Assembly: GCA_030144725.1 (NCBI GenBank)
Contig: JASKMD010000027.1
Coordinates: forward strand, 841,533-905,532
DNA: 64,000 nucleotides
Reading direction: 5' to 3'
DNA from: Haematococcus lacustris
Taxonomy: Eukaryota > Chlorophyta > Chlorophyceae > Chlamydomonadales > Haematococcaceae
Position 1 is the stretch's first letter, and each line of letters opens with the position of its first letter. The notes under the pieces are model-generated. The model did not search any database. It was not told where the DNA came from and saw nothing but the letters and a program-made list of their open reading frames with translations. Made by a program: the position numbers and the translations under genes. Shown here piece after piece: positions 8,345-50,797 of the stretch.

Positions 8345-8844
8345 NNNNNNNNNNNNNNNNNNNNNNNNNNNNNNNNNNNNNNNNNNNNNNNNNNNNNNNN
8401 NNNNNNNNNNNNNNNNNNNNNNNNNNNNNNNNNNNNNNNNNNNNNNNNNNNNNNNNNNNNNNNNNNNNNNNNNNNNNNNNNNNNNNNNNNNNNNNNNNNN
8501 NNNNNNNNNNNNNNNNNNNNNNNNNNNNNNNNNNNNNNNNNNNNNNNNNNNNNNNNNNNNNNNNNNNNNNNNNNNNNNNNNNNNNNNNNNNNNNNNNNNN
8601 NNNNNNNNNNNNNNNNNNNNNNNNNNNNNNNNNNNNNNNNNNNNNNNNNNNNNNNNNNNNNNNNNNNNNNNNNNNNNNNNNNNNNNNNNNNNNNNNNNNN
8701 NNNNNNNNNNNNNNNNNNNNNNNNNNNNNNNNNNNNNNNNNNNNNNNNNNNNNNNNNNNNNNNNNNNNNNNNNNNNNNNNNNNNNNNNNNNNNNNNNNNN
8801 NNNNNNNNNNNNNNNNNNNNNNNNNNNNNNNNNNNNNNNNNNNN
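8345..8844. other. assembly gap, exactly 500 N
   Basis: The run is exactly 500 N, the convention for a gap of unknown size. It cuts both the YAK1-like gene and the 3' half of retrotransposon A, so the adjacency of these two is a scaffolding inference. Confidence 0.95.
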
Positions 8845-11800
8845 GAGAAGGCCGAGAGTTTGTCCGCTTGGCATCGGAGGTTGCGAAGGGTGTTGCAGAG
8901 TATAGCTATGTCGTCCGCATAGTCGATACTGCTGACGGTGGCGCGTTCCCCGCTGTCGGCCGTTGCTGATTTGAATTTATAGCCCCTCGCGCCCACTTGC
9001 AGCCACCGCAGGAGGGGTTCAATGTAAATGAGAAATAGGAAGGGCGAGAGAGAATCGCCTTGTATGGTTCCCCGGTTGACGGATACCGGGTCAGTGTGGC
9101 CGTAGGGTGTCTTAAAGCGCGTTGTAGCGCCCGTGTATAGATCCTTCACTGCGTCGGTCGCGTCCGTGGGGAAGCCTAGGTCATGCATGATCCAGAGTAG
9201 TTTGTCTTGGCAGGTGGTGTTGAACGCGCTGGTGAAGTCGACCAGGAGCGCGTAGATATCCGCCTTGGCCAGCTTGGCATCCTCAAGGGCCATGACAAGC
9301 ATCTGCAGCTGTTGTGTGGTGTTTCTGTGGGAGCGGAACCCAGCCTGGTTCTTGCTGAGCATCCCATTAGCTTCAGCATACTCAGACAGCGTCTTGGTAA
9401 TGAGGCTGGTCCACAGCTTATAAACGGTGTTGGCTAGGCCCACTGGCCTGTAGGAGTTAAGGTCCGTTTCTTGCCCCTTGTCCTTGTAGAGCAGGCACGT
9501 GTCACTGGTCTTCCACGTGGTGGGTGTGCAGCCTGTTGCCCACATGATGATGAAGAGCTGGTGGATGGTTTCCCGCATCTCCCATGGCAGCATCTTGATG
9601 ATTTCATTTTCCACGCCGTCTGGTCCCGGGGCTTTGCCTCCTGCCAGCCTGCTGATGCATTCCTGGAAGCCTGCCTTGTCCATGATGGCTGTGTGCAGCC
9701 AGTGTATGTTTTGGCATGCGTGCATAGCGAAGGCGTCGTCTGCTTTTGCGCAAGCCCACGGGTAGTTTCGTGTCTGTGTATTAGTGTAGTGGCCAGTCTT
9801 GGGGGTCGGGGCCGACAGCTTCTGCCCGTATGCGGTGGTGATTATCCGGTTTAGGTCGGCGGGGGCGGTGCATATGGTTTTGGTGTCAGGATCAGCTAGC
9901 GCTTGCAGGCCTTTGTGGTCGGTGCGGGACGGGCGTAGGATACGTTTGTTAGCCTTCTTGGGCTGGGTGCTGATCAGTTGTTCCATTCTGACACGAGCTT
10001 GTGCTATGGCAAGTGCGGAGTCCTCATCGTCTAGTTGGTGGATTTGGTCGCGGTACGTATTGGCCAGTTGGGCTAACGCGGCCTGCACGTGATTTTCGGT
10101 TGGGTCTTCACCCTGTCGCGCTTGCACCGCGTCCCTGATCTCTTCGTTCGTCGCATCTGTCTCTGGAATGAGTTCGTCGATTTTCGGGTGCACGTTGGTT
10201 TGCTTAAAGAGGGAATTAGCCTTCCGACTGAGGTCTCTAGCGGTCTTCAGCTTTCTACCCAGAGCCAGTCGAATCCTGCACATGGTCCTGCGCTGGTAGT
10301 GTTGTCCTCCCCTTGTGAGGGTCTTAGTGTTGCATGTCTTTATAGCTGCCGTCCTGCAGGTTTGTAGGAGGTGTGTAAGCATGGTGGCTGCGGTGTCGAC
10401 AGCTTCCCTGGCCGTGCGTCCTGCCACTGATGTCAGGCGCTGTGGTTGTTGGGGGTTGGTCTTGCCAAGTGTAGCCAGGTGGTGGGTAGCCTCTGTGTAT
10501 ATGGGGGCTAGGAAGGCTGTCAGTTCTGCATGCAATTGTGGGACGCCTGAGCTAGGTTGTTGCACTGCCAGGCGGTAGGCTTCCCTGTCCTTACTGGTAA
10601 TGGGGGTGGTGAGGATGGTGTGGCTGTGCTTCGGTGGTTTGTGCGGGGCTGCCAGGTTTAAGCCCAGGCGGGCTGTGTTTAGTGTGGCGGTGAGTGGCCT
10701 GTGGTCGCTCAAATAGGCGTTGGTATCGACGTGCGTGCGGTGCTCAGGGCCGTGTCTTGCGTCGCGTGTTAGGATAGCGTCGATGCGGCTGTTGCAGTGC
10801 GGTTGCTGGTAGGTCCAGGCACGGTCGCCGGGGTCAGCTTCGGACAGGCGCATGTCTGTGGCGAACTCCCTCATCATATTGTCTTGTGTGTATTCGGTGT
10901 GCTCGGAGCGATCCTCTGTTTTCATCGTGGCGTTGATATCTCCCGCCAGTATGAGTGAGCCGGGCAGGTGGCCGGTGGCTGTTCGTATGTGTTCTTGCAT
11001 TTTCCCTCGCAGTAATAGAGCGTCCCCGTTGTTTCCCGACGGCCAATACGTGGCGACGATGGTGAGCTGTTCGCACTGGTGTTGGTTGAGGGTTAGGATG
11101 ACGCATCGTGCGTTAACCTCAGCGTCGATGCTTGGTGGGAGCATAGTGGTTTTCATTTGGATGGCTACGTTGTGTTTGATGCCTATTAGTACGTCACTGT
11201 GGCCTCTGTGTCGGTGTGTCGTATAGTCTGGCATGACTCTCCTCAGCCAGCCAGAGCCTGGATTGTTGCTCTTGGGCTGGGTCATGGTTTCAGTTAGGAT
11301 CAGGATGTCCGGGCTGTGTTGATGCACAAGGTTCAGGACGTCGTTCCTGGACCTATGTAGGCTTCTGACGTTCAGGGTCGTTAGTGTGATATGCTGTCGT
11401 TTGTTTGTTGGTTGTGGCTGCCGGGATGGCAAGGTGCTGTGTTGTGGGTGTGGTCCTGGGTGTTCAGGTAGGTTATCAGTGGGGGGTGGCGGTATAGTGG
11501 GGTTGGCGGCGGGGGGTGGGGTGGGGGCTGTGTTTAGGTATCTGTACATCAGGGTCTGCGTGTGCGGGTCCTTAGTCTGCGCTCTTGGCTTGGTCCGTCT
11601 TTTGTCTACGATGGTGCCCGATGTCGTGGGCCGTTTACTGCTGCTTGACCGGGAAGTGGGAAGTGTGACTGTGGGGGCGACCTGGCGCAGTAGAGGCCGG
11701 GCCTGCTTGTCTGTCGGGTGGGTGTCTGCTGTGGCTAGTAGTATGCGCTTGGAGCTCGCTGGTTGTGCAGTGGGTGGCGGCCGGTCTGTTCGGGGGGTGC

Positions 11801-13661
11801 GCGCGGGTTGTGTGCCCGGGTCTTGGGTTGTGAGGTCGATGTGGGTGGTACGTAGATGTTGTTCCAGTTGCTCCGTTGTGGCGCGCCTTGTAGGGTCGGC
11901 TAGCCAGCATAGTGGGTGGATGAGGTTGGTATTAGCCGCGTCGCCCTTTTTGATTTGAACGAGTGTGCCCTTCAGCTGAAGCCAGTCATCCGGGGTGTCC
12001 AATCGGCATGGGCGGCCTTGTTCCGAGTCCAACCAGTGCCATGTGTTGTTAATGCGTCGGATGGTGGTAGCGTGATTGTGAGTAATGAGGATGGCGGCTG
12101 TATTAGTGTAGCTGTCCGTCTTGCCCGTGAGCGTGGTCAGGAGCTCGGGCGTGATGGTGTTGTTGGGCGTGGTTGTGGTCGGGGGGGATAGGTGGAGGTC
12201 CTTGTGGTGGTGGTATAGGTAGTGGTTTATGGTGGGGATGGTGAAGTTGCCAGTTTCCTCGTAAATGTGTGGGAGGTTGCTACTTAGTGGTATTATCCTG
12301 TGCTCCAGCCTTGCCTGGTTGGCTAGGCCTTGGATGTGTGTGGCGAGTGATTTGCAGTGGGTGATGACGTCTTCGGGCCGGATCATGGGTTTCCCTATGG
12401 CCATGTTGATGGCGTGCACAAGACAGCATTGTTTGTATTGCCTTTCCATGTAGCATTGAGACAGGTTCTGGTTGTCTTCCTTGTGGCTGATGATGTGGCT
12501 AATACCCTGTCGGGTGGTGGCCATTGTTTGGGCTGGTGTGGCTGCTGGGTCGGGTGCGATGACGAACACCTCGTGGAAGGAGTTAGTGTGGGAGCGCGAT
12601 AGCTCACGGATGGCTATAGCTGAATTACTGGGGCTCTCAGAGTCTAGGAGTTTCCACTGCCCGCCCAGCTTCCTGAGCGCCATACTGTGGCCGTTCGTTT
12701 TACACAAAAAGTTGAGTGTGGCGTACTCTATCGCCATGGTGTCGAAATTGTCGTCGTTCCAATCGTCTGTGGTGCGTAGTTGAGCGACCCTCGTAATAGT
12801 GAGACCGTATTTGGTCTTAAGGTATAGGTGAATGATTTCGTCACTGAAAGCGCCCCCGTCCCCGCGTGCGGTGTGCCACGCCTTCTTGTCTCCTTCGTCA
12901 TGTAGTGTTGTGGCCCAGGCTATCCAAAAGTTGTGTAGGTCCTCAGGCTTCACCCATTGCTTCCCAGCCGCATTGTTGAGGGAGTGGGCCTGGCAGTTGC
13001 GATTCACCTGTGCTTCGAAGAACTTGGGGTTAGGGTTGAGGTATGGAGTGCTAGGGGTGTCCTGTGGCTGGTGTCTCTCACCGGAGCGTGGGCCGGGGTT
13101 GGCTTCGACGTCCCCGGCTGCCAGTAGCAGCCATGATATGAAGTTGTCTACTGTGAACGAGGTTTTCCATGTGGGGTCCTGGTGTTGTGCCGTTGCCGTG
13201 GCGCCCTCAGCTTCCCTCATCTGATAGGTACAATAGGCCTGTATGGTAGTGTTATATTGGCTGACTGTCCGGGTGTGGTTCTCGTGCCCCCCCTTGAGGT
13301 ACAGGTGGGTTCTATGTGAAATCCTACCGATGGCCGTGGTGGCAGGCACAATACCGGTAAGGTCCCTCAATGTGTTGTATGTCGTGATATGTACAATGGC
13401 CCTTAGGCGTATAATCTTTTTCCTTTGTCGTGCAAGGCACCGTTTGGAGTCTTTCAAGGTGGGTATCTGGGGTTGGTGTCGTTGTGTCACGCACCATCCT
13501 ATGAGGATGGCGATGAGGGTGAGAGTATCTGGGTAGTCGGTCCGCCCAGGTAGAGTTGCCTTGGGGGGGCATGGGTGGGTGGTATGGTGTACGTTTATGT
13601 ATGTGTTTGTCCCAGTAGCGGCAGTACCCATAGTTCTTACATTCACATTGCCGATACACAT
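8845..13661 (-). mobile_element. non-LTR retrotransposon copy A (Dualen/RandI-like), 3' part lost in gap
   Basis: The minus-strand polyprotein matches copies B and C closely through APE endonuclease and reverse transcriptase, then runs into the N gap just after the YADD box (about 8909-8925). PHD, RNase H, restriction-like endonuclease and 3' tail are therefore not visible. The 5' boundary is unknown: sequence upstream of the ATG at 13661 shows no similarity to the region upstream of copy B. Confidence 0.9.
8845..13661 (-). CDS. retrotransposon A polyprotein (leader-2A-Josephin x2-APE-RT), 3' truncated by gap
   Basis: I place the start at ATG 13661 (MCIGNVNVRT) because this makes the leader up to the 2A break exactly 190 residues, the same as in copy B. 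The frame is also open upstream of it, into gene G1. Order: hydrophobic leader (DTLTLIAILIGW around 45-56), SKRCL-basic block, hydrophobic WLLLAA then GDVEANPGP (2A, 13089-13115); Josephin-like domain 1 with CQAHSLNN (Cys223, His226), GHSMALRKLGGQW and LLDSES; domain 2 with CCLVHAINMA, NHATTI and WHWLDSE; linker with QTLMYRYL; APE endonuclease (TLNVRSLHRSRNDV, AGDINATM, SDHRPLTATL); RT with AGGKAPGPDG, QAGFRSHRNTTQQ, TIQGDSLSPFLF and YADD. No internal stop is visible in about 1600 codons, so the copy may be young. Homology to Josephin is by motif alone. Confidence 0.85.
13089..13130 (-). other. 2A-like translational recoding peptide, copy A
   Basis: The codons read LLLAAGDVEANPGP, matching the D-V/I-E-x-N-P-G-P consensus at which 2A peptides make the ribosome skip the Gly-Pro bond. 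The hydrophobic stretch directly before it fits 2A upstream contexts that also work as signal sequences in some animal LINEs. The break would fall between residues 190 and 191. Confidence 0.8.
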
Positions 13662-15245: not shown

Positions 15246-17913
15246 CTGATCAAATATGGGGAAGCCCGCCTCAATTGCCAGCTCATCGAAGGCAGTCAGG
15301 TTGTTGTCGCTGCTGCCCCTGCTGCTGTTCCTGCTACTGTTCCTGCTGCTGCCTCCACGGCTCCCCCCACCAGCCGCCGTGGAGGAGGGGGGAGGTAGCC
15401 CCCTACCCCCTGAGCCTCTGAAGGGTTGGGTAGGCGGGAGACGGTACTCCTCCCCTCCCCTGCCCCTGCCTCCCTGAGTCCTCCCCGCTGCAGGTCCCCC
15501 GGTAGGGCGGGGTGCGGTGGCCCCCTGGGTGGCGACAGTAGGGGGCGGTAGGGGCTGGAGGATGGTAGATACTCCTGGGATCCGGAGCCCCCAGCCTCTG
15601 GGTGCTTGTTGCCCAGTCACAGGCCTGGTGACGCCCGGGTGGGTGCGGGCCTTCAGGAGTGAGGCAATGTAGTTCACCGAGCTGGGTGGGGCTACCCTAG
15701 CCTCTATGATGATGGTGGTAGCCCTGTTTTGCAGGCTGTGGGCTGCGTTAGCATCCTGTACCCTATTCATGGTGCTATCAGTGCTGACAGCCACAGCAGC
15801 CCGGAATGTGAAGGTCCCTTGGTCATTGATATGCTGGAGGCCCGTCAGGTCGAGGTTGGCCTGTGTGACCTCGGGCAAGTAGTGTAGGGGGGGGGGGGGG
15901 GGTCTCGATGGCCTCCAGCCACACAACCGCTGGGTAGTCTTCGCGGGAGGTCCCTATCCAGTGTTTGGTGATGCCCAGCAGGAGCTGGTCTGGGCCCACG
16001 TCGATGATGCCTGACATCGACTGCATGGCGGTCAGGGCGCTGATCATGTCTTGGGTGCTGGCCAGCGTCAGCAGTGGGTGGGGGCAGGAGGGGTGGGTTG
16101 TGTAGGCTGACGCCGCTGCAGCTGCTGCGCCATCCTCTCCAATTGTCCTCAGCTCAACCTGGATGCGGCAAGTGGCAGGGCAATAGCATTGGTCATGCGA
16201 GGCTGGACATTGTAGTAAGGCAGCAGGTGGGGCTTCGTGAAGGACTGGCAGGTGCATCCTGTCGGTGGTGGTGGGAGGTGTGGTTACCAGTAGGTTCTGG
16301 CAGGTTTGGCTTGTATAATGGGCTTGGTTACAGCACCCCCATGTGGAGCTAGTGGGCAGGGATAGCAGGTGTGGTCTATGTTGTGTGTTACTGGGTGGGG
16401 TCCATGTGTCAGGTATGTGGGTAGTTACACACTGTGTGGCCTGCAGCAGGGTTCTGACTAGTTGCCTCCGTGGGTGTGGATGAGGTGGGGTTTGTTGGGG
16501 TGGCCCCTGTGTGGGATTAGCCGGTGTGGCCAGGATGTGTCCAGTAAGGCATGATGTGCATGGTTGATGGGCATGGTGAGCATTTGTGCCATGCTGGTAG
16601 GGTTGACGGGTGGGCCCATTGGTGGTGGGGGTTGACGTGTAATCTTGGCGGGTACAGTCTAGGTGTGTGTGTGGTCTGCAAAGTTGTTTGTGTCCGCTTT
16701 GTGTCCTGGTGTTTGTGCCTTGATGTGTAAGGGTAGGTGTATTGGCAATGCTTACCCTGTTAGAGAGAGGGTTCTTGTAGACGATGTCCAGATACTGCTG
16801 TGCCAGCCCCTCCCTGGGCGTGATGAGATCCCCCTGCGCACTGGCAAAGCTCAGTGCACGAGTTGGGCGCTGGCTAAGGGTGCTGCGCCACCGGGCCCCC
16901 GCTACGCTCTGTTCGTTGACTAGGACATCCACGCTGTCACTCTGCAGGTGAGCCTGCTGGAGCTCACGTATCACTGTCAGCATATCCTGTGTGGTCACAG
17001 GCTGTCCTGACCGCCTGCTGACCGCTATGCACAGCGTTGGGAGAGGCTGCTGCTGGAACGCCTTAATGTGCATGGAGAGGACGTCTTCAATCTCCACACT
17101 GATGCTACCGTACTGGTCCAGTAGCTCCCTCAAAGCAGGCGTGCTGCTGTGGATGGCGTAGGTGTCAAGGGCATCCCCTGACTCATGAGTCACTGCGTTT
17201 GCGCTCAATGCCAGCAGCAGTCTGCGTATGGGGTGGTTAGCAGAGTTGGCTTGATATTGTGCCAGCTCTTCGTCAGAGAAAGGAGGAGCCCCGAAGGCTG
17301 CCATTGCAGCCCCTGCTGCACTAACGCTCAGGACCCTCTTAACTGCAGGGCCAGGGACGCCTCTTTGACCCCCCTGGCTGAGCTGGAGGTCTAGCCCATC
17401 AGATTCGTCTCCCAGCCTGATCTGCACCCTGGCTTTGGTGTTGTATTTGCTGTGGGCAGGGTTCTCCTCTTGCACTACGCAGCGCATTCTACCCTGGACC
17501 ACTCCCTGGCTTCCTGTAGCTATGTCCACTATGACGGGGTTGTACTCATGTGCCTGCTGGACTTTGTGGATCAGCTCTGGGGGGAGGTCGAACGAGTACT
17601 CCCTAACTTGGCACTTATAGCCCCTGCCCGGCTGCCCCACTCGAAACTGAGCCTTGTCATTAACAGTGACTACGCAATCTGGCACCTCTGCATGCTGCAT
17701 CACCCAATCCCGGATCTGCGCCTCGCCCTTGCCGTCGTGGTAAAGGTAGGGAACCCGGACGTAGTTGTTGTCCGCGTACGTGGCTGTCACCTGCCCGATA
17801 AGGGCTATGGTGACGGCCTGGCTGCCATCAAAGCCCGAGAGGGCCGGGATTCCCAGGCTGTGCAGAAGAAGAAGAAGAAGAAGAAGACTACGCCGGCGTT
17901 CACCGGCGTGCAT
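15246..17913 (-). CDS. unrecognised protein G1, multi-exon, partial
   Basis: Exon 1 ends at 16756 (donor GTAAGC) and joins in phase 0 to an exon starting 16158 (acceptor ATCCAG), which runs to a donor GTACAA after 15246. Exon 1 contains VTATYADNNYVRVPYLY, PDCVVTVNDKAQFRVG, LLLALSANAVTHESGDALDT and VEIEDVLSMHIKAFQQ; exon 2 contains ELRTIGEDGAAAAAASAY, IIDVGPDQLLLGI and FTFRAAVAVSTDSTMNRVQ, then a Gly/Ser/Arg-rich tail (SSRNSSRNSSRGSS). A G16 run at 15887-15902 shifts the frame by one, probably a homopolymer-length error or polymorphism. The visible 5' end is made by the 3' tail of retrotransposon B: its ATG at 17913 and (CTT)n are read as a basic start followed by eight Leu, a signal-peptide-like sequence, so the native N-terminus may have been displaced. 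I recognise no family. Confidence 0.5.
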
Positions 17914-17950
17914 TAAGGGAGGAGCAGCCGCCTGGGGCGCGGCCTGCTCC
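17887..17950 (-). ncRNA. 3' UTR stem-loops of retrotransposon B
   Basis: On the minus strand, stem 1 (17950-17921) pairs GGAGCA with TGCTCC and, past a bulge, GCCGC with GCGGC. Stem 2 (17909-17890 region) pairs ACGCCGG with CCGGCGT around a short loop. The (TTC)n tail follows at once. The same two structures occur in copies C and D. This is the usual position of an RT-recognition structure in stringent LINEs; function is inferred. Confidence 0.6.
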
Positions 17951-17980
17951 CACCATCAAGCTCGAGAAGCAGCCGACCCC

Positions 17981-20900
17981 CTACCCCCCCCCCTTTCTAG
18001 TAGCTCTAAGTCTGTAACTTGTTTTGGCAATGGTGTGGGCTGTTTCTACCGCATGTCTCGTGAGCTTGTTTAGTAGCTTTGTGGCGTTGGTTTGAGTGAC
18101 CCCAAGGGCTATGAGGTGTTGACGTGTGTGTGTTTCATAGGTAATACCGCCTACACCCAGTAGGATTGGTCTGATCTCAACCATGTGGCCTATCTTGCGC
18201 ATGGTGTGTGCCAGTTTTGTGTGTTGGTTTAGGGCCTTGTCTAGTTGCTCCATCCACCTCGAGTCCGCACAATATTTGATTTCTATGATGGTGATTTGTT
18301 TAGTGGCTTTGCCGCGTTTTCCCGTCTTCTTTTGAGGCGTCACCATGATTATGTCCGGTCTGGTAGTGTTTTTGGTCGCTGTTGGTTTCATGCCGAGTGC
18401 CCGTAGCGTGGTGTGTAGTGAGTCGTTAGGGAGGTCAAGGTTTTCTCTAGCGCCTTTCTCCCAGCTGCCGGTGTCCGCAAACCGGATGCATCCGCCCAGG
18501 GTTCCTTTGCTGATGGCTTTGGCGATGAGGCGGCCAGCTCCGTTGTGCCTCTCTTGCACGAGTGGCAGGGTCTCGTTGCATCCCGAGAGCAGGTGTGTGG
18601 CACTGTCGGCCTCCCCACAGAGGGGGCAGCGGTCGTCTGTCGCCTGCTTCCAGCGCATAGCTAGTTTCTGGTTGTATAGTCCTCCGGTACGGTAGAGTAG
18701 GGCGGTCCTTTGCGCGGGGATGGAGATGGTCGCATCGGTCATCACTCTTTCGCCCGCTCCTTTTGCCGCAGCTTTGGTGATATCTTGGGTCATCTGGTAG
18801 TAAATGCTGTCTTGGTTGGCGAGACCTAGCTTGTGCTTGCTGTGCATGTGTGCTCGTACGCTGTGTCGGCAGTCCGGCAGCGGGGCGAGGGTTTCGCTAT
18901 CGGTCCCGTGGTTGAGCCAGATACCTCTCTCCTTGGGTGTGGTCGGGTGGTACTCTAGTGTGTTTGCCTGCTCCGGGTGTAGCGCTGCGTGTTTAGCGAG
19001 GGCATCAGCGCCTTCGTTGCCGATGATGCCCGAGTGGGCCCGGACCTTGTAGAATTGGGTCGTGACGGGGCTAGCGATGATGAGGGTGGCGATGTCCGTC
19101 AGGATGTCGTTGTGTCTATGATTAATGAGGGACATCGGGTTAGCCAGGGCTCGGCGGATCTGATATAGAGAGCATAGGCTGTCGGTGGCGATGCGTCTGG
19201 CCCCCGCTTTCAGTGCCGCGTGTATCGCTGTGAGTTCTGCCTTGTTGATGGTGTTGTTCTCTGGGTCGTTCATCGCAATGGTAAGTAGGGCGTTGCTTTC
19301 CGGAATATAGACCCCCGCCCCGACGCGCGCCGGGTCTGGCTCGGATGTCTTAATGCAGCTGCCGTCAGTGTACGCTATCGTGGTCCATTCGGTGATGGCC
19401 ATCCGCGGTAGCGTGGTGGAGTGGTGCGTGAGCCGGTGTTGGCTGCGTGTGTGCCCCAGCGTGGGTAGAGCCCTGTCCAGCGGGAGGCGGAGGTGTTGTT
19501 TGTGGCCACTGGGGAGGGCGGCTGGCTGTTTTTGATTGTGAGGTCTGCGAAGGAGAGGGTGTGTCTCCCTGTCCGGGTGTAGGGCAGTGGCTGTGCTAGC
19601 CATCCATCCTTGTGGGTTGCCTTTGGTGGTGAGTAGTTGCCCTGCTTCATTCCATATGACGTACACGAGGAGGGTGGCGTGCTTGCCAAGTTTGGAGCAG
19701 TTGGTATTGTTGAGGGGTATGCTGGCCAAGTGCTGACAGTACTCTGGGTAGCGTCTCAGGGTGTCAATGTGTTTGGGGTAAGAGATGCCCTTCTTACCAG
19801 GGATCAGCATAATGGTGGCCATGGCCTCCTCCTGGTGTGCTGAGTGTATAGCATGGTTGACGCATTTTAGGGCCACCGCATCATCGGCTGGTACGTTCCA
19901 TGTGGATAGCCCAGTGTGGCGTACTAATAGGCAGTTGTGGTGTGCCCCAAAGGCCGTGTCATTGATGTCAGGGCTCCAGTAGGTAGTAGTTTCTGGTCTA
20001 ACTGTAAGTGGATCAGCCCACCTTTGGACGGTGCTAGTGAAGGATCGTGTGGTGTGTAGGGTGGTGAGGGCTTTGTCTTGTGCCAGTCTCATGGGGTGGT
20101 GGCTGCTCTGTGTGTCCTGTCTCCTTAGGAGGGCCACCAGTTCTGTGGCCAGGTTTCGTGTGTGTGGTGTGTGTTGTAACCAAGCATGTAGGTGTTGGTG
20201 TTGTTGTTTGGTCAGGAGGCCTACTGTGCGGCCCGACTCGTCGTGGACCGTTACGTGTTGCACTAGGTCGTGTTTGGGCATGATGGGCTCCCCCGTGCTG
20301 AAGCTCATCGCTGGGGTGGTCATGTGGGGGTGCAGTTGGAGGAAGGTTTCGCATTTGCCCGTCCCGACGATGTCCGTCTGCGGGTTGATGGGGTATGTGT
20401 GGAAGGTGGCCTTCGAGTGTAGGTTGGTGCACCGGGGTAGCCAGGTGTGCGGGTCCGGCAGTCCCTGCCGGGTGTGGCTTGGTAGCTTCGTATCGGGCCG
20501 CGCGTATCTAGCTTCTTGTATCCTCTTATTCTCCTCTTCATAGTCACCGCGTCGCGCCAGGTAGTCCAGGTGTGCCGTGATGAGCGGTGCCGGTTCGAGG
20601 GTGGGGCGCCAGTGAACTCGTATAAGGTCCGAGTGCGCTGACAGACGCATAGTCGTTTTGAACTCGTTGCTGCCAAACTTGCATATTGGGCACAGCCAGT
20701 GGCCTTGTTCTTTGTGTCCCGACAGGAGGGCTTCCTCGAGGCAGGCTGGGTGGTAGGCCCTCTTGCAGTTGTGGCACATTGGGTTGTCTCCTCTTGGTAG
20801 CCAGCATAGCTCACATGTGCATACGTCTTTAGCCTCTTCCCTGCTGATGGGTTCTATGTGTGTGGGTGTATAGCCTTCTTCTGCACATAGTGGTAATGCC

Positions 20901-23900
20901 CATCTGTCTATGACTGTGGGCTTCCAATGCACCTTGTAGTAGCTTTCTTTGTTGATGCCGTCCCATTGCCATCCATCTATGCTGGTAATGGCCTCTTGGT
21001 GGCCGTACATGGCCCCTAGTATGCTGCCTAGGTCCTTGGGTTTACAACGGCAGGCTTTATCCACCTTCCAGCTAGAGAGCCCTGGAAGGTCAAGGCCAAC
21101 TGTGTGTACTATATCCTTCGGGATGGTTTGGATCTGTCTGCCCTGAGTGTTCCGTTTCGTGCCCGCCTTGGGTCGGGCTGGTTTCGTTGGGGGCGATTGG
21201 ATTTCCCTGTTCTCCCGCCTCAGCAGCCGGGAGCTACTTTTGATGGTCTCCTGGGCTGCGGGCGGTTGTGTTGCATGTTCGGTCGCGTGCGTCGCTTCGG
21301 TCGGTGTGGGCTTCTTGGCAGTCACGTACGCCCTGATATCAGCGTAGCGGTGTTTTGTGTCTTCCTCGACGTCGGTTGGTGCCAGCTCCGTCAGGCCCGC
21401 GGCCCATGGTTTAATTAGTCTTTGCGCAGCGGGCCGGTCTAGGGTGGTGTCTCGTTTGGCTGCGATGTCTTTCGCTTCCGTTGTGGTTGGGCATCTGTCC
21501 TGGGTCGCCATGGTCGTTAGTCTGTTGAGGGCGATATAGTGCTTTTGTTGGACTTTGTTGTGGAAGCGCTCTTTAAGCATCTTTCCTGATATGATGTAGG
21601 TATGGCCAGCGATGGTGTGTTGTAGCTCTGTGGCATGCTGGATGCCCAGGCTTTTGAGGCACGTCATGCAAGCACTAACTATGTCGAGTGGAAGGGGGCT
21701 GGTATTCTGTGTGATGAGTTGTCCAAGCAGTTTGGTTTCCTTAGGGTAGACCTCTTGTCCTTCCTGGGTGGCAGTGAGCTGCGCCGTGGTGGCATGTAGG
21801 AGTTGTCTGGCTCGTAGGGTGTGTCGCAGCATAATGAGCATGCGGTGTCCATGCTTGGCAGCTTGAGCGTAGAGCCAAGTGATTTGTTTGTGTAGCATGC
21901 ATCTGGTTATGTGGGCATGTGTGGTGTCTGTGGACTGGAGGCTGTGTAGGAGGGCTGTAGTGTTTCTGGTATGGTACTCTTTGGCGGTTGAGCTGATGCC
22001 AAGGCCGAGTTTGTCGATGTCCTCCCTGACGACGGCATTGGGTGTGCCTAGTGGGAGTCTGAGTTTTTTCTTAATACATTGATTAATTGCTCTGTCGTAG
22101 AGGTCTAGGTCTCCCGGTGTGCATGGGGCTACGCAGAAGCTATAGGCCAGACTGGGGATGATGGCTGTTTTGATGATGTGGATGGCTTGTCTGGCGCTGG
22201 CGAATGAGCGTCGTAGTCTTTCTAGTTTCTGTCTGAGTTGTGTCATCATGGCTATGTGTTGTGGTTTCCAGTTGAGCGTCATGGTAAGTAAGACACCAAG
22301 GTAAGTGAAGGGGGAGGTCGGTTTGAGGTAGGTGACAGGCTTTCCTTGTAGCGTTACGGCTTGCAGTTCTCTACGGGCTTGCTTTTCCGCTTCTGCCATG
22401 GTGCTGCATCTGCCGGATTGGTGCGCTTTGTGGAGCGCCGCTGTGGCGAGGGTTTTGCTGTGGGATACGATTAGGTGGCCCCAATCCGAGTAGGCGGAGA
22501 GCTTATCTGCCTGACAGCGTAGGTTGCTGATCGAGTTGCATACGATAGCGATGTCATCTGCGTAGTCGATGCTGCCGATTGTAAATCGCCCGGCGCTGTC
22601 GGTTGTGTCGGATGTAAATTTGTACCCCCTCGCTCCTACTTGGAGCCAGCGCAGTAGGGGTTCGATGTAGATGAGGAACAGGAAGGGTGAGAGTGAGTCG
22701 CCCTGGATGGTGCCCCGGTCCACGGGTACCGGGTCGGTGGGGCCGTAGGGAGTTCTGAAGCGCGTTGTAGCGCCCGTGTACAGGTCCTTCACCGCGTCTG
22801 TGGCGTCGGTGGGGAAGCCAAGGTCGTGCATGATCCATAGCAGTTTGTCTTGGCAGGTGGTGTTGAAGGCGCTAGTGAAGTCGACCAATAGCGCATAGAT
22901 GTCTACTTTGGCTAGCTTGGCGTCTTCAAGAGCCATGACTAGCATTTGGAGCTGTTGTGTGGTGTCCCTGTGGGAGCGGAAGCCTGCTTGGCAGTTACTT
23001 AACATCCCGTTTGCCTCAGCATACTCGTACAGCGCCTTGGTTATGAGGCTGGTCCAGTGTTTGTAGATGGTATTGGCCAGCCCAACAGGTCTGTAGGCGT
23101 TGAGGTCTGTTTCTTGGCCCTTGTCCTTGTAGAGCAGGCAGGTGTCACTGGTTTTCCATGTTGTGGGTGTGCAGCCAGTGGCCCACATGATGATGAACAG
23201 TTGGTGTATGGTGTCCCTCATCTCCCATGGCAGCATCTTGATGATCTCGTTTTCAATGCCGTCTGGGCCAGGCGCTTTGCCCCCTGATAGTCTGCTGATG
23301 CATTCTTGAAATCCCGCTTTGTCCATGATGGCTGTGTGCATCCAGTGTACTCTTTGGCAGGTGTGCAGCGTGAAGGGGTCCACGGCTTTGGGGCGGGTCC
23401 AGGGATAGTTTCTGGTTTGTGTGTTTGTGTAATGGCCTGTTTTGGGGGTCGGCGGCGTGAGCTTTTGGCTATAAGCGGCGGTGATAATCCGGTTGAGGTC
23501 GGCCGGGGCGGTGCATATGGTTTTGGTATCAGGGTCAGCTAGCGCCTGCAAGCCTTTGTGATCGGTGCGAGAAGGGCGTAGTATGTATTTGTTGGCTTTT
23601 TTGGGTTGGGTGCTGATGAGGTGTTGCATTCTGAGACGCGCCTGTGCAATGGCAAGTGCGGAGTCGTCGTCACCTAGCTTGTGGATTTGGTCGCGGTAGG
23701 AGTTGGTCAGCTGGGCGAGCGCGGCTTGCACGTGATTTTCGGTTGTACCGTCGCCCTGGCGTGCTTGCACCGCCTCCCTTACTTCCGCGTTGATCGTGTC
23801 TGTCTCTGGGAGTAGGTCGTCGATAGACGGGTGGACGCTGTTTTGTTTGTATAACATTCTAGCCTTCCGGCTGAGTTCTCTGGTGGTTTTGAGCTTTTTC

Positions 23901-26900
23901 CCTAGTGCCTGTCTGATCTTGCACATGCTCCTGCGTTGGTAATGCTGGCCTCCTCTGGTCAACGTCTTGGTGTTGCATGTCTGCATGGCAGTTCCCCTGC
24001 AGGTTTCCAGGAGCGTTGTGAGCATGGTGGCTGCGGTGTCGACAGCTTCTCTAGCCGGTAGGCCTGCCACTAGTGTCAAGCGTTGTGGTTGTTGTGGGTT
24101 GGCCTTGTCTAGTGTGGTCAGGAAGTGGGTAGCATCTGTGTACATGGGAGCTAGGTATGCTGTCAGTTGTGCATGCAGTTGTGGAGCGCCTGAGCTGGGT
24201 TGTTGCACTCCCAGCCGGTATGCTTCCCTATCCTTGTTGGTGATTGGGGTGGTGAGAATGGTGTGGCTGTGTTTTAAGGGTTTATGTGTGGTTGCTAGAT
24301 CTATGCCCAGTCTGGTAGTGGTGAGTGTGGCGGTGAGCGGTCTGTGGTCGCTGAGGTACGCGTTTGTGTCGACGTGCGTGCGATGCCCAGGGCCTTGTCT
24401 CGCGTCGCGCGTCAGGATGGCGTCGATGCGGCTGTTGCAGTGTGGTTGCTGGTAGGTCCAGGCCCGGTCGCCGGGGTCAGCTTCGGATAGGCGCAGCTCT
24501 GTGGCGAACTCCCTCATCATGTGGTCTTGTGGGTATTCAGTGTGTTCGGAGCGGTCCTCTGCCCTCATCGTGGCGTTGATGTCTCCCGCTAGGATGAGTG
24601 AGCCGGGCAGGCATCCAGTGGCTGTTCGTATGTGTTCTTGCATCTTTCTCCTTAATGGGATTGCGTCGTCATTGTTCCCTGACGGCCAGTACGTGGCAAC
24701 GAGTGTGAGTTCCTCGCTTTGCCGTTGGCGGAGGCTTAGGATGACACATCGGGTATTTACATCCGCATCTGTACACGGCGGCAGCATGGTGGCTTGCATC
24801 TGGATAGCTAGATCGTGTCTGATGCCAATGAGGACCTCACTATGGCCTTCGTGACGATGGACGGTGTAGTTGGGCATCACCCTCTTCAGCCAGCCACAGC
24901 TAGGCTTGTTGCTCTTGGGTTGGGTCATAGTCTCAGTGAGGATCAAGATGTCCGGGCTATGTTTGTGCACCAGGTTTAGGACCTCGTTTCTAGATCTGCA
25001 TAGGCCTCTGACATTGAAGGTTGTGAGGGTGATGTGTTGCCTGTTGTGGGTTGCTTGGGGCGGTTCGGTTGGGGGGTTATTGTGTTGGCTCGTGCAAGAG
25101 TCACTGTCCGGCGTGGTTTGTGGTGTCTCGGCTATGGTGGGGTTGAGCCTTGTGGAGTGGGCTCCGGTAGTGGGTTTGCGGAGGTATTGGGACATTAGGG
25201 TTTGTGTGTGCGTGTCGTTGCGTTGTGCCTTGGTGGCTCGTACCCGCTTAGCGGACGGGCCAATGTTGGTATCGACCCGCGTGGTGGGTCGATTAGTACG
25301 CGGCGTACCTGAGGGGGCTGGCGGGCTGAGGGTAACCGTGGGAATGTCCCGGCGTTGTCGCGACCGGGCAGGTTCCTCGTGTGATGGAGTGTCCTCTACT
25401 GTAGTGCTGCGCTTGGTGTCTAGTGTAGGGTTCTTGTCGGCGTCCATGGTGGTCCCGGGCGGTGGGGCTAGTATCTCTCCTACCTCTATGTTGGTGAGAT
25501 CGATCGTGTGATCTTGAAAGTGCGCTGTTAGTGCTGATGCGGTGGTGGCCTCCAGCGGGTCCGCTATCCAGATCTCTCTCCTAACGAACCTTGTGTGTCT
25601 TACGTTGCCTGTGCAGATGGTGAGCATGTTCCCTTGGAGGCGTCCCCAGTCGTTAGGTGTGGAGAGTGGTTTGGGCACACGGTTGAGTGAGTCCAGCTGG
25701 TACCAGCCTTGTTGTGTGTGTTTAATGACAGTTGCATGGTGGTGTGATAGCAAGATAATAGCATCGGAGTGTGTCGCCCCCGTGCTTGCAATTGCTGTAG
25801 TGATCACCTCAGGTGTGATACTGTGGGTTGGTAGGTAGGTTGTTGCTGGGTTCAGGTACGTGCGCATCTCATGGTGTTGGCGGTGTAGGTAGTGGTTCAG
25901 TGTGTCAGACGAGAACTTGCCTTTCTCGTGATAGATGTGATCAGTATTGAAGGGTCGAATTGTATGCCCTGCTTCTCGTGCTCCTTGTGCTAGATGTTGT
26001 AGGTGCTCGGCTAGTTGCTTGCAGTGTCTGATGACTGCATGGTAGTCTATGCATTTCTTTCCCATGGCCATGTTGAATGCATGTACCAGGCAGCATTCTT
26101 CGTGTTGCCCTTCCATGTAGAGATGTGCAGGGTTGTGGGTCTGTGGATATGTGAGGCCGGGTCCTGTAGTGTTGCGATCGTGGTCGCATGTTTGTTCCGC
26201 ATGGCTGATGATGTGGTAAATTCTCTTTTCCTCACACCGGCGTATCTGCTCCCGTGAGCGGGTATTAGGCGTGATGACAAAGAGCTGGTGCATAATCCGC
26301 TTGGTTGCGGCAGGAACGTTCAAGAGAGGTGTGGCTGTCGTTTTCAAGGAGTCCAGTAGGTGCCATGCGCCATTAATGCATTTCATGGCCATGCTGTGGC
26401 CTGGCTTTTTGCACAAAAAGGTGTTTGTACCATACTGGCCAGCAAGGTTCCCCAGTTTATCAGCAGCCCAGTCGCTGGGTTGGGTGAGTTGGGCAATGCT
26501 CTGCACAGCAAGGCCGTAATGGGTGCGTAAATACATCTCAATGACATCGTCAGAGTAGCCGTCCACTCCTCTTGCCATTAGCCATGCGCCACGCTCGAAG
26601 TGATCAGTTATTTGAGGGAGCCTGTTCTCGTAAAAGTTGTCTATGTCTTGCATGGTGACCCATTCATGTCCCGCAGCATTGTTCAGGGAGTATACCTGGC
26701 ACGCGGAGCTATCTTTATCTTGCTGAAAGTGCTGAACCTCTGGACCTGGGTTAGCTTCAACATCCCCAGCGGCTAATAAGAGCCAGGCCACGTAGACAGC
26801 CCGTGCGGCAGCTATGGGGTTAAAGGTGGAGGTGGTCCAATTACTTTCACCTATTGTTGTTTGGTAGCAACCGTAGACATGGAGGGTGTTGTTGTATTGG

Positions 26901-27313
26901 TAGACTGTGTATGGGCGGCCATTCTTAGCTCCATATGTGGAGAGGTAGAATGTGTTAGAAAGCTTGCAGAGGGAGCTAGAGGCGGCTAGGGTGCCGTCTA
27001 GGCCCGTCATTAGATTGTACCCGATGATTCGTATTGTGGCTCTACAGGAGCCTAGTCGTTTGCGGTGTCGTCTTAGGCATCGTTTGGATTCTGTAGCTGT
27101 GGGTTTGTGGCGGTGTTGGAAGCTTGTGTTGCGGATGTAGGTACCTATCGCAATGAGGAGGAGTTGGGCTATTACCCTATTCTGATGGTCGATGACGCTG
27201 CCAGTGTGGGTGGGGGTATAGTGGTGCGCATGGCCGGTGGTCTCATCCCGGTACCGCTGTTGGCTGCTTGCATTTACATGAGGTCCCTGGGCTACGACAT
27301 AGACGTGCAACAT
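17981..27313 (-). CDS. retrotransposon B polyprotein: leader-2A-Josephin x2-APE-RT-PHD-RNase H-RLE
   Basis: ATG 27313 to TAG 17981, about 3110 aa. Leader 1-190 has hydrophobic stretches at 47-60 and about 171-183; 2A break at 190/191. Josephin-like 1: Cys205 (CQVYSLNN), His306 (GHSMAM), Asp321 (WHLLDS). Josephin-like 2: Cys408 (CCLVHAFNMA), His526 (HHATVI), Asp541 (WYQLDS). QTLMSQYL (704-711) is PIP-box-like. APE from about 760 (TFNVRGL, ILAGDINATM, LSDHRPLTATL). RT: GGKAPGPDG (near 23270), QAGFRSHRDTTQQ, FTSAFNTT, TIQGDSLSPF, YADD (near 22560). PHD finger CELC...CHNCKRAYHPAC...CPIC (20690-20820). RNase H: YTDGSC, KAELTAIHAAL, ATDSLCSLYQI, RAHSGIIGNEGAD (19390-18980). CCHC: CPLCGEADSATHLLSGC (near 18590-18640). 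Restriction-like endonuclease: RPDIIMV then IIEIKYCADSRW, a PD...ExK pattern (18360-18250). APE plus RLE in one ORF is the Dualen signature; it would nick target DNA and prime reverse transcription from the RNA 3' end. Confidence 0.92.
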   Translation of the reverse strand: MLHVYVVAQGPHVNASSQQRYRDETTGHAHHYTPTHTGSVIDHQNRVIAQLLLIAIGTYIRNTSFQHRHKPTATESKRCLRRHRKRLGSCRATIRIIGYNLMTGLDGTLAASSSLCKLSNTFYLSTYGAKNGRPYTVYQYNNTLHVYGCYQTTIGESNWTTSTFNPIAAARAVYVAWLLLAAGDVEANPGPEVQHFQQDKDSSACQVYSLNNAAGHEWVTMQDIDNFYENRLPQITDHFERGAWLMARGVDGYSDDVIEMYLRTHYGLAVQSIAQLTQPSDWAADKLGNLAGQYGTNTFLCKKPGHSMAMKCINGAWHLLDSLKTTATPLLNVPAATKRIMHQLFVITPNTRSREQIRRCEEKRIYHIISHAEQTCDHDRNTTGPGLTYPQTHNPAHLYMEGQHEECCLVHAFNMAMGKKCIDYHAVIRHCKQLAEHLQHLAQGAREAGHTIRPFNTDHIYHEKGKFSSDTLNHYLHRQHHEMRTYLNPATTYLPTHSITPEVITTAIASTGATHSDAIILLSHHHATVIKHTQQGWYQLDSLNRVPKPLSTPNDWGRLQGNMLTICTGNVRHTRFVRREIWIADPLEATTASALTAHFQDHTIDLTNIEVGEILAPPPGTTMDADKNPTLDTKRSTTVEDTPSHEEPARSRQRRDIPTVTLSPPAPSGTPRTNRPTTRVDTNIGPSAKRVRATKAQRNDTHTQTLMSQYLRKPTTGAHSTRLNPTIAETPQTTPDSDSCTSQHNNPPTEPPQATHNRQHITLTTFNVRGLCRSRNEVLNLVHKHSPDILILTETMTQPKSNKPSCGWLKRVMPNYTVHRHEGHSEVLIGIRHDLAIQMQATMLPPCTDADVNTRCVILSLRQRQSEELTLVATYWPSGNNDDAIPLRRKMQEHIRTATGCLPGSLILAGDINATMRAEDRSEHTEYPQDHMMREFATELRLSEADPGDRAWTYQQPHCNSRIDAILTRDARQGPGHRTHVDTNAYLSDHRPLTATLTTTRLGIDLATTHKPLKHSHTILTTPITNKDREAYRLGVQQPSSGAPQLHAQLTAYLAPMYTDATHFLTTLDKANPQQPQRLTLVAGLPAREAVDTAATMLTTLLETCRGTAMQTCNTKTLTRGGQHYQRRSMCKIRQALGKKLKTTRELSRKARMLYKQNSVHPSIDDLLPETDTINAEVREAVQARQGDGTTENHVQAALAQLTNSYRDQIHKLGDDDSALAIAQARLRMQHLISTQPKKANKYILRPSRTDHKGLQALADPDTKTICTAPADLNRIITAAYSQKLTPPTPKTGHYTNTQTRNYPWTRPKAVDPFTLHTCQRVHWMHTAIMDKAGFQECISRLSGGKAPGPDGIENEIIKMLPWEMRDTIHQLFIIMWATGCTPTTWKTSDTCLLYKDKGQETDLNAYRPVGLANTIYKHWTSLITKALYEYAEANGMLSNCQAGFRSHRDTTQQLQMLVMALEDAKLAKVDIYALLVDFTSAFNTTCQDKLLWIMHDLGFPTDATDAVKDLYTGATTRFRTPYGPTDPVPVDRGTIQGDSLSPFLFLIYIEPLLRWLQVGARGYKFTSDTTDSAGRFTIGSIDYADDIAIVCNSISNLRCQADKLSAYSDWGHLIVSHSKTLATAALHKAHQSGRCSTMAEAEKQARRELQAVTLQGKPVTYLKPTSPFTYLGVLLTMTLNWKPQHIAMMTQLRQKLERLRRSFASARQAIHIIKTAIIPSLAYSFCVAPCTPGDLDLYDRAINQCIKKKLRLPLGTPNAVVREDIDKLGLGISSTAKEYHTRNTTALLHSLQSTDTTHAHITRCMLHKQITWLYAQAAKHGHRMLIMLRHTLRARQLLHATTAQLTATQEGQEVYPKETKLLGQLITQNTSPLPLDIVSACMTCLKSLGIQHATELQHTIAGHTYIISGKMLKERFHNKVQQKHYIALNRLTTMATQDRCPTTTEAKDIAAKRDTTLDRPAAQRLIKPWAAGLTELAPTDVEEDTKHRYADIRAYVTAKKPTPTEATHATEHATQPPAAQETIKSSSRLLRRENREIQSPPTKPARPKAGTKRNTQGRQIQTIPKDIVHTVGLDLPGLSSWKVDKACRCKPKDLGSILGAMYGHQEAITSIDGWQWDGINKESYYKVHWKPTVIDRWALPLCAEEGYTPTHIEPISREEAKDVCTCELCWLPRGDNPMCHNCKRAYHPACLEEALLSGHKEQGHWLCPICKFGSNEFKTTMRLSAHSDLIRVHWRPTLEPAPLITAHLDYLARRGDYEEENKRIQEARYARPDTKLPSHTRQGLPDPHTWLPRCTNLHSKATFHTYPINPQTDIVGTGKCETFLQLHPHMTTPAMSFSTGEPIMPKHDLVQHVTVHDESGRTVGLLTKQQHQHLHAWLQHTPHTRNLATELVALLRRQDTQSSHHPMRLAQDKALTTLHTTRSFTSTVQRWADPLTVRPETTTYWSPDINDTAFGAHHNCLLVRHTGLSTWNVPADDAVALKCVNHAIHSAHQEEAMATIMLIPGKKGISYPKHIDTLRRYPEYCQHLASIPLNNTNCSKLGKHATLLVYVIWNEAGQLLTTKGNPQGWMASTATALHPDRETHPLLRRPHNQKQPAALPSGHKQHLRLPLDRALPTLGHTRSQHRLTHHSTTLPRMAITEWTTIAYTDGSCIKTSEPDPARVGAGVYIPESNALLTIAMNDPENNTINKAELTAIHAALKAGARRIATDSLCSLYQIRRALANPMSLINHRHNDILTDIATLIIASPVTTQFYKVRAHSGIIGNEGADALAKHAALHPEQANTLEYHPTTPKERGIWLNHGTDSETLAPLPDCRHSVRAHMHSKHKLGLANQDSIYYQMTQDITKAAAKGAGERVMTDATISIPAQRTALLYRTGGLYNQKLAMRWKQATDDRCPLCGEADSATHLLSGCNETLPLVQERHNGAGRLIAKAISKGTLGGCIRFADTGSWEKGARENLDLPNDSLHTTLRALGMKPTATKNTTRPDIIMVTPQKKTGKRGKATKQITIIEIKYCADSRWMEQLDKALNQHTKLAHTMRKIGHMVEIRPILLGVGGITYETHTRQHLIALGVTQTNATKLLNKLTRHAVETAHTIAKTSYRLRATRKGGG
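26741..26782 (-). other. 2A-like translational recoding peptide, copy B
   Basis: The same 14 residues as in copy A (LLLAAGDVEANPGP) lie at the same residue position, while the preceding leaders are strongly diverged. Identity limited to this stretch suggests selection on the recoding peptide. Confidence 0.8.
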
Positions 27314-27511
27314 AGTACCATAACGGGGTGCCAGGGTGGTGAGGGGTGCAGGCCACTCATTCCACACTCAGGATAAATAAGGACCGGTCGCGATGGGATC
27401 GACCATAGCTCATTGGATAGCTTGCATTTAGTCCGTTCGAACGGTACAAATCTTACGTTGTAACTCGCTACCATCGCGACGAAAAAGGCCCGACAAAAAG
27501 TGTCCTGAAAA

Positions 27512-27825
27512 GTGCATCGCTTGCTGCGCAGCAACGGTACATCCGTCGCTGCGCAGCAACGCGACACCTCTTGCTGCGCAGCAACGTTGCACTTTGTACC
27601 CTTGCTGCGCAGCAACTTTACATCCCTTGCTGCGCAGCAACGTTACATCTCTTGCTGCGCAGCGACGTTACATCTCTTGCTGCGCAGCGACGTTACATCT
27701 CTTGCTGCGCAGCGACGTTACATCTCTTGCTGCGCAGCGACGTTACATCTCTTGCTGCACAGCAACGTTACATCTCTTGCTGCACAGCAACGTCTACATC
27801 TCTTGCTGCGCAGCAACGTTTACAT
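27512..27825. repeat. palindrome-bearing 25-bp tandem array (left)
   Basis: About twelve units, each containing TTGCTGCGCAGCAA or the variant with AGCGA, spaced at 25 bases through most of the array with CGTTACATCT spacers. The 14-mer is a perfect palindrome. Early units carry a GTTGCACTTTGTACCC spacer that recurs, in the same orientation, in the right array. Confidence 0.9.
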
Positions 27826-32092: not shown

Positions 32093-32439
32093 TGGAGGGG
32101 GGGGGTACCTCTCGCGCGGATCGTTATATCTCCGCAACCGCTGTGAGTTAGGACTTCGTTCCAGAGCGAGGTCCCTCTAAAACTCACTGTTCTATCGTTC
32201 TATCGGAGCGGAATGTCCATCCGATGAAAAAAAGACTGACGCGTCGGCCTTATTTATCCTGAGTGCACAGCCTCACTCGTCCTTTTCTGCTATATGGTGT
32301 TCCTACTACATTCCTATGTCTAGCTAGCCACTGATAGCTGGCCCCAAGGCGTTGTTCAATGCAGGGTGAGTGCGCAGGGCACTGCCAGCAGTCGGTCCAG
32401 TTCCCATGCCCGCAATTGTTTGCCAAGGGGGTCTTGGCC

Positions 32440-50404: not shown

Positions 50405-50797
50405 GCCAGATGGACCGAACAATTGGAAAACGTTTGCACACAGCACGTAGCCCTTGCTGAGGCCATCCGGGCAGCTGGCAACACCGATAGCATTCAACCC
50501 ATCCTACTGGGCATAGGCAGCATCACCTACGACACCCACACCAGCAACACATGAGGGAGTTGGGTGTAACACATACCAACTTCACCAAACTACTCAACAA
50601 GCTCACACGGCACGCGATGATAAGCTCACATAACATTGCCAAAACAAGCTACAGGCTCAGAGCAGGGAAAGGGGACTAGGGCTTGGGAGGTTCTCTCCAT
50701 CAGCCAGGGTAGGTGGTGGGAGCAGGCCGCGCCCCGGGCGGAAACTCCTTCCTTAATGCACGCCGGCTTCCACACCGGAGTAGTCTTCTTCTTCTTT
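50405..50797 (+). pseudogene. retrotransposon copy D, 3'-terminal fragment
   Basis: The last 80 or so codons of the RLE region (ATGGACCGAACAA onward) plus the full 3' UTR stem-loops and a (TTC)n tail. It is strongly similar to copy C but carries frameshifting deletions (for example around 50540). Its tail ends about 60 bases past the stop codon of the minus-strand PPC gene. Confidence 0.85.

Follow-up and report, generated by a model that had tools for sequence, protein, structure and literature searches.

A 64,000-nucleotide stretch of the green alga Haematococcus lacustris (contig JASKMD010000027.1, positions 841,533 to 905,532; this whole stretch is called the window here) carries a very long open reading frame (ORF) in which two domains of the Josephin family stand ahead of the enzymes of a retrotransposon. 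The locus raises the question of what kind of element encodes such a polyprotein, whether the front modules belong to it, and what they may do for it. The explanation that we consider the best, and overall a likely one, is a long interspersed element (LINE) of the Dualen/RandI type with a leader predicted to be released at a 2A motif, Josephin domains that would act on ubiquitin, and front cassettes that appear to have been swapped between related elements.

A single polyprotein with two endonucleases

Copy 1 of the element, listed as a single ORF of 3128 amino acids, occupies positions 17981..27367 of the window on the minus strand. An in-frame stop codon (27368-27370) lies directly upstream, and the first ATG is at 27313, the end point given in an earlier sequence-only reading of this DNA. 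That reading had described an uninterrupted frame of about 3110 codons without giving its strand; the frame was found to comprise 3128 codons on the minus strand, and the plus-strand frames across the same interval contained 118, 84 and 200 stops. The modules that it had listed (leader, 2A, two Josephins, APE endonuclease, reverse transcriptase (RT), PHD finger, RNase H, CCHC motif and restriction-like endonuclease (RLE)) were all recovered in this one frame by Pfam matches and motifs, and all features of copy 1 given below lie on the minus strand. Scanned as a whole, the copy 1 protein exceeded the curated Pfam cut-offs for Josephin, Exo_endo_phos, RVT_1 and RNase_H. APE spans residues 779-1013 (24329..25033; Exo_endo_phos, 46.3 bits), RT residues 1341-1758 (22094..23347; RVT_1, 79.1 bits; YADD at 22553-22564) and RNase H residues 2659-2795 (18983..19393; RNase_H, 59.5 bits). 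The CCHC zinc motif CPLCGEADSATHLLSGC was located at 18578..18628 and the RLE core at residues about 2995-3060 (18188..18385), with RPD...EIK at 18254-18361.

A first protein search gave 37 matches, all 37 from Haematococcus lacustris, which makes these the nearest proteins. From the matches listed in this search, in an RT search (best 120 of 213) and in a search starting from a distant relative (best 120 of 192), a set was assembled that consists of 78 proteins from Haematococcus and 73 others, which for the most part come from environmental contigs. Domains were counted with our own profiles, seeded with copy 1 and iterated on the matches; the relatives are predicted gene models, and the Haematococcus group of the 2A, active-site and motif counts includes the window copies. 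A Josephin was present in 59/78 Haematococcus proteins and 31/73 other relatives, APE together with RLE in 43/78 and 45/73, and Josephin, APE, RT, PHD, PCIF1-like domain, RNase H and RLE all together in 35/78 and 24/73. Many of the incomplete relatives were cut at one end or, in Haematococcus, were fused gene models. The relatives have mostly preserved the catalytic residues of all four enzymes (APE, RT, RNase H, RLE), as illustrated by P-D-E-K of RLE (60/63 environmental and 35/37 Haematococcus-group domains) and DEDD of RNase H (63/64 and 52/54). Because the order Josephin-APE-RT-PHD-RNase H-RLE recurs well outside this locus, the front modules cannot be put down to a fusion by chance.

Assignment by anatomy to the Dualen/RandI type

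By its anatomy copy 1 appears to be an intact-looking autonomous LINE, that is, a retrotransposon without long terminal repeats (LTR), of the Dualen/RandI type, which is known from Chlamydomonas and other green algae. This assignment follows the anatomy as published (APE plus RLE, RNase H, (TCT)n tail) and not an RT phylogeny. The combination of APE and RLE, which the sequence-only reading had taken as the mark of the group, is described in this way for Dualen in the excerpted text of PMC4640811, where Dualen also carries RNase H. RandI 3' tails are given as (ATT)n/(CTATTT)n, without poly(A), in excerpts of PMC3747384, and a non-poly(A) tail is also given in PMC4640811. According to passages of two further papers, Dualen families are found in all species of one study (PMC8226300) and Dualen elements occur in cryptophytes (PMC12747079).

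Thus the element shares with Dualen/RandI, as far as these excerpts describe them, both endonucleases, RNase H and a simple-repeat 3' tail, and it carries in addition tandem Josephins, 2A, a PHD finger and a PCIF1-like domain, Dualen being compared by its description only. No protein named Dualen or RandI was among the matches listed. In a quick tree of 80 rows, 76 relatives stood apart from three R2 and one L1 RT (SH-aLRT 99), with the references on very long branches. The R2 group is defined by RLE as the only endonuclease; copy 1 possesses APE, although among PDB sequences R2 was closest to its RT (84 bits), followed by L1 (45 bits). Another known LINE of the RLE type has an N-terminal ubiquitin-like-modifier peptidase, which is alike in kind but belongs to another family, in an element without APE.

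Two Josephin domains in tandem

The two Josephin-like peptidases of the sequence-only reading were confirmed as members of the Josephin family. Domain B (residues 415-586, Pfam match 421-570; 25610..26125) scored 45.8 bits against a cut-off of 26, with the catalytic Q-C-H-D/N set complete (Q421, C426, H544, D559). Domain A (residues 213-377; 26237..26731) holds C223, H324 and D339 and scored 14.3 bits in copy 1; in copy 2, which represents another family in the window, it reached 27.7 bits with the same cut-off and a complete catalytic set. When separate alignments from 26 copies were compared by hhalign, domains A and B proved homologous with a probability of 96% (E 3e-9).

Active sites were scored in domains spanning all scored positions. 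Q-C-H-N-H-D was complete in 46/46 second, 8/8 single and 16/39 first Josephins of the Haematococcus group; C, N, H and D were present in all 39 first Josephins, Q and the adjacent H together in 16. The full set was found in 27/36 environmental Josephins, all 36 of which kept Q, C and the catalytic H, and the catalytic Cys and His were present in each of the 129 Josephins scored. The Josephin of the environmental relative P0151 matched ataxin-3-like protein 3o65 (E 1.5e-6) and Josephin-2 (E 8.2e-5) among PDB sequences. Family membership by Pfam, the PDB match and the Q-C-H-N-H-D set are thus shared with ataxin-3 and Josephin-2, from which the present domains differ in sitting inside a retroelement polyprotein. 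At the position where 3o65 has an N, which we take to be catalytic, the Josephin here has D, as does Josephin-2. In animals, the Josephin domain removes ubiquitin.

Among 15 environmental relatives scanned as whole proteins with Pfam, the Josephin cut-off was passed by P0087, P0109, P0113, P0151 and P0152; P0085 and P0112 remained below it, and P0092 was recognized by our own profile only. P0119 carries a Ulp1/C48 peptidase (81.1 bits) and no Josephin.

A leader followed by a 2A motif

The leader extends from the start ATG to 2A (residues 19-201; 26765..27313). It is weakly conserved between families, and neither leader nor inter-domain linkers matched a Pfam family at its cut-off. The 2A motif WLLLAAGDVEANPGP (residues 195-209; 26741..26785) contains the core DVEANPGP (residues 202-209; 26741-26764), which agrees with the D[V/I]ExNPGP consensus and is preceded by the conserved WLLLAxG. 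In an alignment of 14 leaders, WLLLAxGDxExNPGP was the sole near-invariant block, P0009 differing at WLL. At this motif the ribosome probably lets go of a small leader protein.

The occurrence of 2A was counted in proteins with a full-length Josephin match and at least 60 residues ahead of it. It directly preceded the first full-length Josephin in 39/53 Haematococcus-group proteins (copies 1 and 2 included) and in 3/25 environmental proteins. In 13 of the 14 Haematococcus-group proteins without 2A, the first Josephin is absent or lacks its beginning, as judged by the flanks; P0068 has this Josephin but no 2A. The environmental proteins P0151 and P0152 show the order 2A-Josephin-Josephin-APE of copy 1, each with two Pfam Josephin stretches, and their 2A, GIEPNPGP, deviates from the D[V/I] consensus. 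P0119 and P0128, also environmental, have 2A at other positions.

A single origin of 2A was rejected with RT data: seven Haematococcus-group and five environmental rows with 2A did not form a clade in the approximately unbiased (AU) test (p 1.25e-4), performed on a quick tree with long outgroup branches. This leaves two gains, losses, or a transfer together with the cassette as explanations. As side observations, P0092 holds two 2A motifs 66 residues apart (residues 632-705) with only a Josephin start (QHENFCLVFAIN) between them, and P0119 has, besides its 2A, a near-2A string, DVHPNPGP, with the Ulp1/C48 peptidase in the Josephin slot.

According to excerpts of PMC4981915, 2A is known in other LINEs, namely L1Tc of Trypanosoma cruzi and sea urchin non-LTR elements; PMC12846837 also deals with 2A. 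The D[V/I]ExNPGP motif within a LINE is common to these and to copy 1. These known elements are called APE-type in a cited title, whereas here 2A precedes a Josephin pair in an element with APE and RLE.

Apparent exchange of the front cassette

Reassortment was analyzed with 26 copies that possess RT as well as the Josephin pair (the RT of copy 2 being partial). The front region fell into four clusters, N1 to N4, with 35-58% identity between and 71-100% within clusters. A group of 14 copies, RT-II, shared RT identities of 94.0-99.3% (median 96.9%) and nevertheless carried three front types, whose identity across clusters was 36-44% (N4 vs. N1 or N2) and 53-58% (N1 vs. N2). For example, P0006 and P0036 are 98.6% identical in RT and 38% in the front, and P0006 and copy 2 are 98.3% and 42% identical, respectively. 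In 50-residue windows, identity between copy 2 and P0036 was 36-45% before, and 74-100% after, a step that lies between the two Josephins; between copy 2 and P0006 it rose from 29-53% to 62-100% around the start of APE (up to the RT cut in copy 2).

RT data rejected the front clusters N2 (AU p 1e-61) and N4 (AU p 6e-10) as clades, and front data rejected RT-II as a clade (AU p 2e-88); the groups had been named after the identities were known, and the trees were of a quick kind. In P0006 and P0036, the spacing between Josephin B and APE and between APE and RT differed by no more than a few residues from that in those window frames that are uninterrupted, which speaks against gene-model artefacts. 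On the basis of these identities and topologies, related elements appear to have exchanged their front cassette.

A PCIF1-like domain, a PHD finger and a linker

Between PHD and RNase H, a domain missed in the sequence-only reading was found (residues 2393-2588; 19604..20191). In a single-sequence phmmer search, set for one million sequences, it matched 47 environmental relatives at E<1e-3, the best being P0147 (E 9e-12), annotated with PF12237 (PCIF1). The PF12237 cut-off of 31.1 was passed by P0092 (51.8), P0115 (51.6), P0105 (50.2), P0090 (38.0), P0128 (35.4) and P0088 (32.9); P0119, P0113, P0085 and P0151, among the 15 environmental relatives scanned, remained below it. A piece of P0115 matched PCIF1 6irv in the PDB (E 0.001). 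In the window itself, the domain (19388-20650) gave no PF12237 match, so that the link to PCIF1 runs via the relatives only. The relatives match the cap m6Am methyltransferase PCIF1 in sequence but have lost its NPPF: this catalytic motif was found in 0/124 PCIF1-like domains, being replaced by NPEY in 23/66 environmental domains and by NVPA, as in copy 1, in 57/58 Haematococcus-group domains. An active PCIF1 methyltransferase was rejected on this ground, and since NPPF is absent from all 124 the domain is probably non-catalytic.

The PHD finger (residues 2185-2229; 20681..20815), a C4HC3 finger by eye, scored 17.8 bits in the whole protein against a cut-off of 24, and 24.5 bits as an excised domain; that of copy 3 scored 10.1 bits, with Y in place of one Cys. 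The PHD of P0092 (residues 2634-2695) matched solved structures of PHDs from plants (EHD3 and ATXR5) and from animals (AIRE-type), which hints at histone H3 tail binding. PHD fingers are reportedly present in other LINEs (CR1-like).

The PIP-like linker of the sequence-only reading was retrieved as HTQTLMSQYL (residues 720-729; 25181..25210) within linker 690-734, which is kept across Haematococcus-group proteins; its profile matched no environmental protein among those listed. PIP boxes are of the QxxhxxFF type, and QTLMSQYL ends in L instead of an aromatic residue, so that the linker stands as a feature of this group with an imperfect PIP box.

Other copies and neighbouring features in the window

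The sequence-only reading held that three copies agree on the domains they retain. They do so as far as the stretch from PHD to RLE (in two of them) and 2A with both Josephins (in two) are concerned; however, window copies 1-3 are only 61-70% identical in pairwise protein comparisons and therefore represent different families rather than copies of one. Copy 2 (8844..13523, minus strand, the part aligned to copy 1) comprises leader, 2A (13089-13112), Josephin A (12525-13022), Josephin B (11946-12455), APE and a partial RT that is interrupted by a run of N (8345-8844). Copy 3 (42063..49727, plus strand) is 5'-truncated and starts at the equivalent of residue 548 of copy 1, so that 2A and the first Josephin lie outside it; linker, APE, RT, PHD, PCIF1-like domain, RNase H and RLE are present. 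Copy 4 (50405..50664, plus strand), likewise 5'-truncated, is a 3' fragment with residues 3036-3122 in two frames.

Copies 1, 3 and 4 have one 3' untranslated region (UTR) in common, which in copy 1 lies at 17864..17980 and ends in a (TCT)n tail (17864-17887). A constant 3' end in copies that are truncated at the 5' side is what target-primed reverse transcription typically leaves behind. A conserved RNA fold in the 3' UTR was considered and rejected: copy 1 folded better than shuffled sequences (z -3.4), copies 3 and 4 did not (z about +0.3), and only conservation of sequence and tail is claimed for this reason. On its upstream side the copy 1 ORF adjoins a 25-bp tandem repeat of about 12 copies (27515..27825, minus strand), which probably represents 5' UTR/promoter monomers. 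A second, similar tandem array with units of about 25 bp is found some 4 kb off (31511-32086), and a palindrome core, GCTGCGCAGC, occurs in both arrays.

Just upstream of copy 3, a Ty3/gypsy-type polyprotein (37478-41176, plus strand) encodes aspartyl protease, RT, RNase H, integrase and chromodomain. A long array at 29393-30104 matches itself at 5-bp steps and is overlapped by ORFs on both strands, which are probably not genes. The minus-strand ORFs at 15823-17913 (696 aa) and 32250-35903 (1217 aa) gave no Pfam match at E 0.01; the poly-leucine start of the former stems from the (TCT)n tail of copy 1, across which this ORF opens. The window gave no match in scans for Rfam families and tRNAs.

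Proposed mechanism and alternative explanations

In the mechanism that we propose, the mRNA would be translated once; at 2A the ribosome would release a leader of about 180 aa and continue with a second product of about 2900 aa. The Josephins, or at any rate domain B, would remove ubiquitin from the protein or ribonucleoprotein of the element or from host proteins, and this may protect the element against the proteasome or against silencing based on ubiquitin. Docking of the complex on histone H3 would fall to the PHD finger, while the PCIF1-like domain may bind nucleic acid or protein without methylation. APE and/or RLE would nick the target and RT would copy from the 3' tail by target-primed reverse transcription. 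When families are expressed together, template switching between them would swap the front cassettes, which in our proposal are exchanged in this way like host-interaction modules.

Several observations weigh against this explanation or narrow it. Josephin A of copy 1 is without the Q and the H beside the Cys, the Q five residues before it being K218 and the H after it Y226, and Pfam recognized no peptidase in four long environmental relatives (P0088, P0090, P0105 and P0128). The Josephins of copies 1 and 2 are 38-45% identical vs. 90% for RT, which marks the front region as fast-evolving. The ratio of nonsynonymous to synonymous substitution rates (dN/dS) reached 0.36 in Josephin A, 0.45 in the leader and 0.47 in Josephin B (50 codons shared with copy 3), compared with 0.04-0.18 for RT, APE, RLE and RNase H, 0.16 for the PCIF1-like domain and 0.24 for PHD; as synonymous sites are near saturation, the front-end values (0.35-0.47) are to be taken as indicative. 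With 22/25 environmental proteins having no 2A before the Josephin, 2A must be dispensable for the clade. The RT tree accommodates clusters N1 and N3, the former without support, so that movement is not demonstrated for every cassette, and the reassorting relatives are known from gene models and not from DNA.

How far the finding is new depends on what is already known of Dualen, which in an abstract by Kojima and Fujiwara from 2005 is reported to include a cysteine protease that may or may not be this Josephin. The earlier suggestion that the deubiquitinase-type layer may not have been described is weakened by this, and novelty may hold only for the identity of the protease, its tandem state, 2A, PHD and swapping. 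That there is nothing new at all, the element being an ordinary Dualen with a protease already described and an incidental 2A-like string, seems to us rather doubtful. That reported protease agrees with it, as do the excerpts on APE, RLE and RNase H in Dualen (PMC4640811) and on 2A in other LINEs (PMC4981915), but 2A is kept in 39 of the 53 Haematococcus-group proteins within an otherwise poorly conserved region. Moreover, among the matches listed in a search of the open-licence literature, weak evidence in itself, titles and abstract beginnings showed no retrotransposon-encoded Josephin; the matches listed there likewise gave by title no PCIF1 domain in a retrotransposon, and PHD in LINEs and cassette swapping were not searched for.

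The Josephins could also be processing proteases that cut the polyprotein between modules and do not act on ubiquitin. A 2900-residue protein of many enzymes would invite such processing, and LTRGG occurs between APE and RT in 7/7 Haematococcus-group proteins examined, with GG at this site in environmental relatives such as P0082, P0084, P0085, P0087, P0109 and P0132. However, ten environmental Josephin relatives (P0093, P0096, P0108, P0112, P0116, P0117, P0118, P0125, P0136 and P0137) have SG, TG or AG there, by which self-cleavage at LTRGG as a general mechanism was ruled out. Given that ataxin-3-type Josephins are ubiquitin-specific and that the Ulp1/C48 peptidase in the Josephin slot of P0119 is also an enzyme of ubiquitin-like modifiers, we consider processing unlikely. 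That fast divergence or errors in the gene models, and not exchange, produced the conflict between front and RT is very improbable: front ends do evolve faster and some gene models of relatives are fused with other elements, but it is the topologies that conflict and not the rates alone, identity changes in steps at domain borders, and the domain spacing of P0006 and P0036 is close to that of the window copies. A chance fusion at this locus, named in the sequence-only reading as what would overturn it, can practically be dismissed in view of the Josephins in Haematococcus and environmental relatives counted above.

Implications

A Dualen/RandI-type LINE with ubiquitin-acting Josephins thus remains the explanation that we favour. 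A broader reading, which we put forward tentatively and at less than even weight, is that of a widespread LINE clade whose exchangeable front cassette would be a counter-defence module shuffled against ubiquitin-dependent silencing, while on chromatin the integration complex would be guided by PHD together with a dead PCIF1-like reader. Such a cassette would perhaps consist of a 2A-released leader in some lineages and one or two ubiquitin- or SUMO-type peptidases, moved by template switching between near-identical RT bodies.

LINEs with both endonucleases are supposed to connect the RLE branch with the APE branch, a view cited in excerpts of PMC4640811. The present element provides a LINE that contains a 2A from an alga, a PHD finger and a PCIF1-like domain in degenerate form, and ubiquitin-type peptidases with intact active sites are found in many lineages of these dual-endonuclease elements. 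Together with the apparent exchange of cassettes among near-identical RT bodies, these peptidases would offer a concrete test of deubiquitination and module shuffling as an escape from host control.

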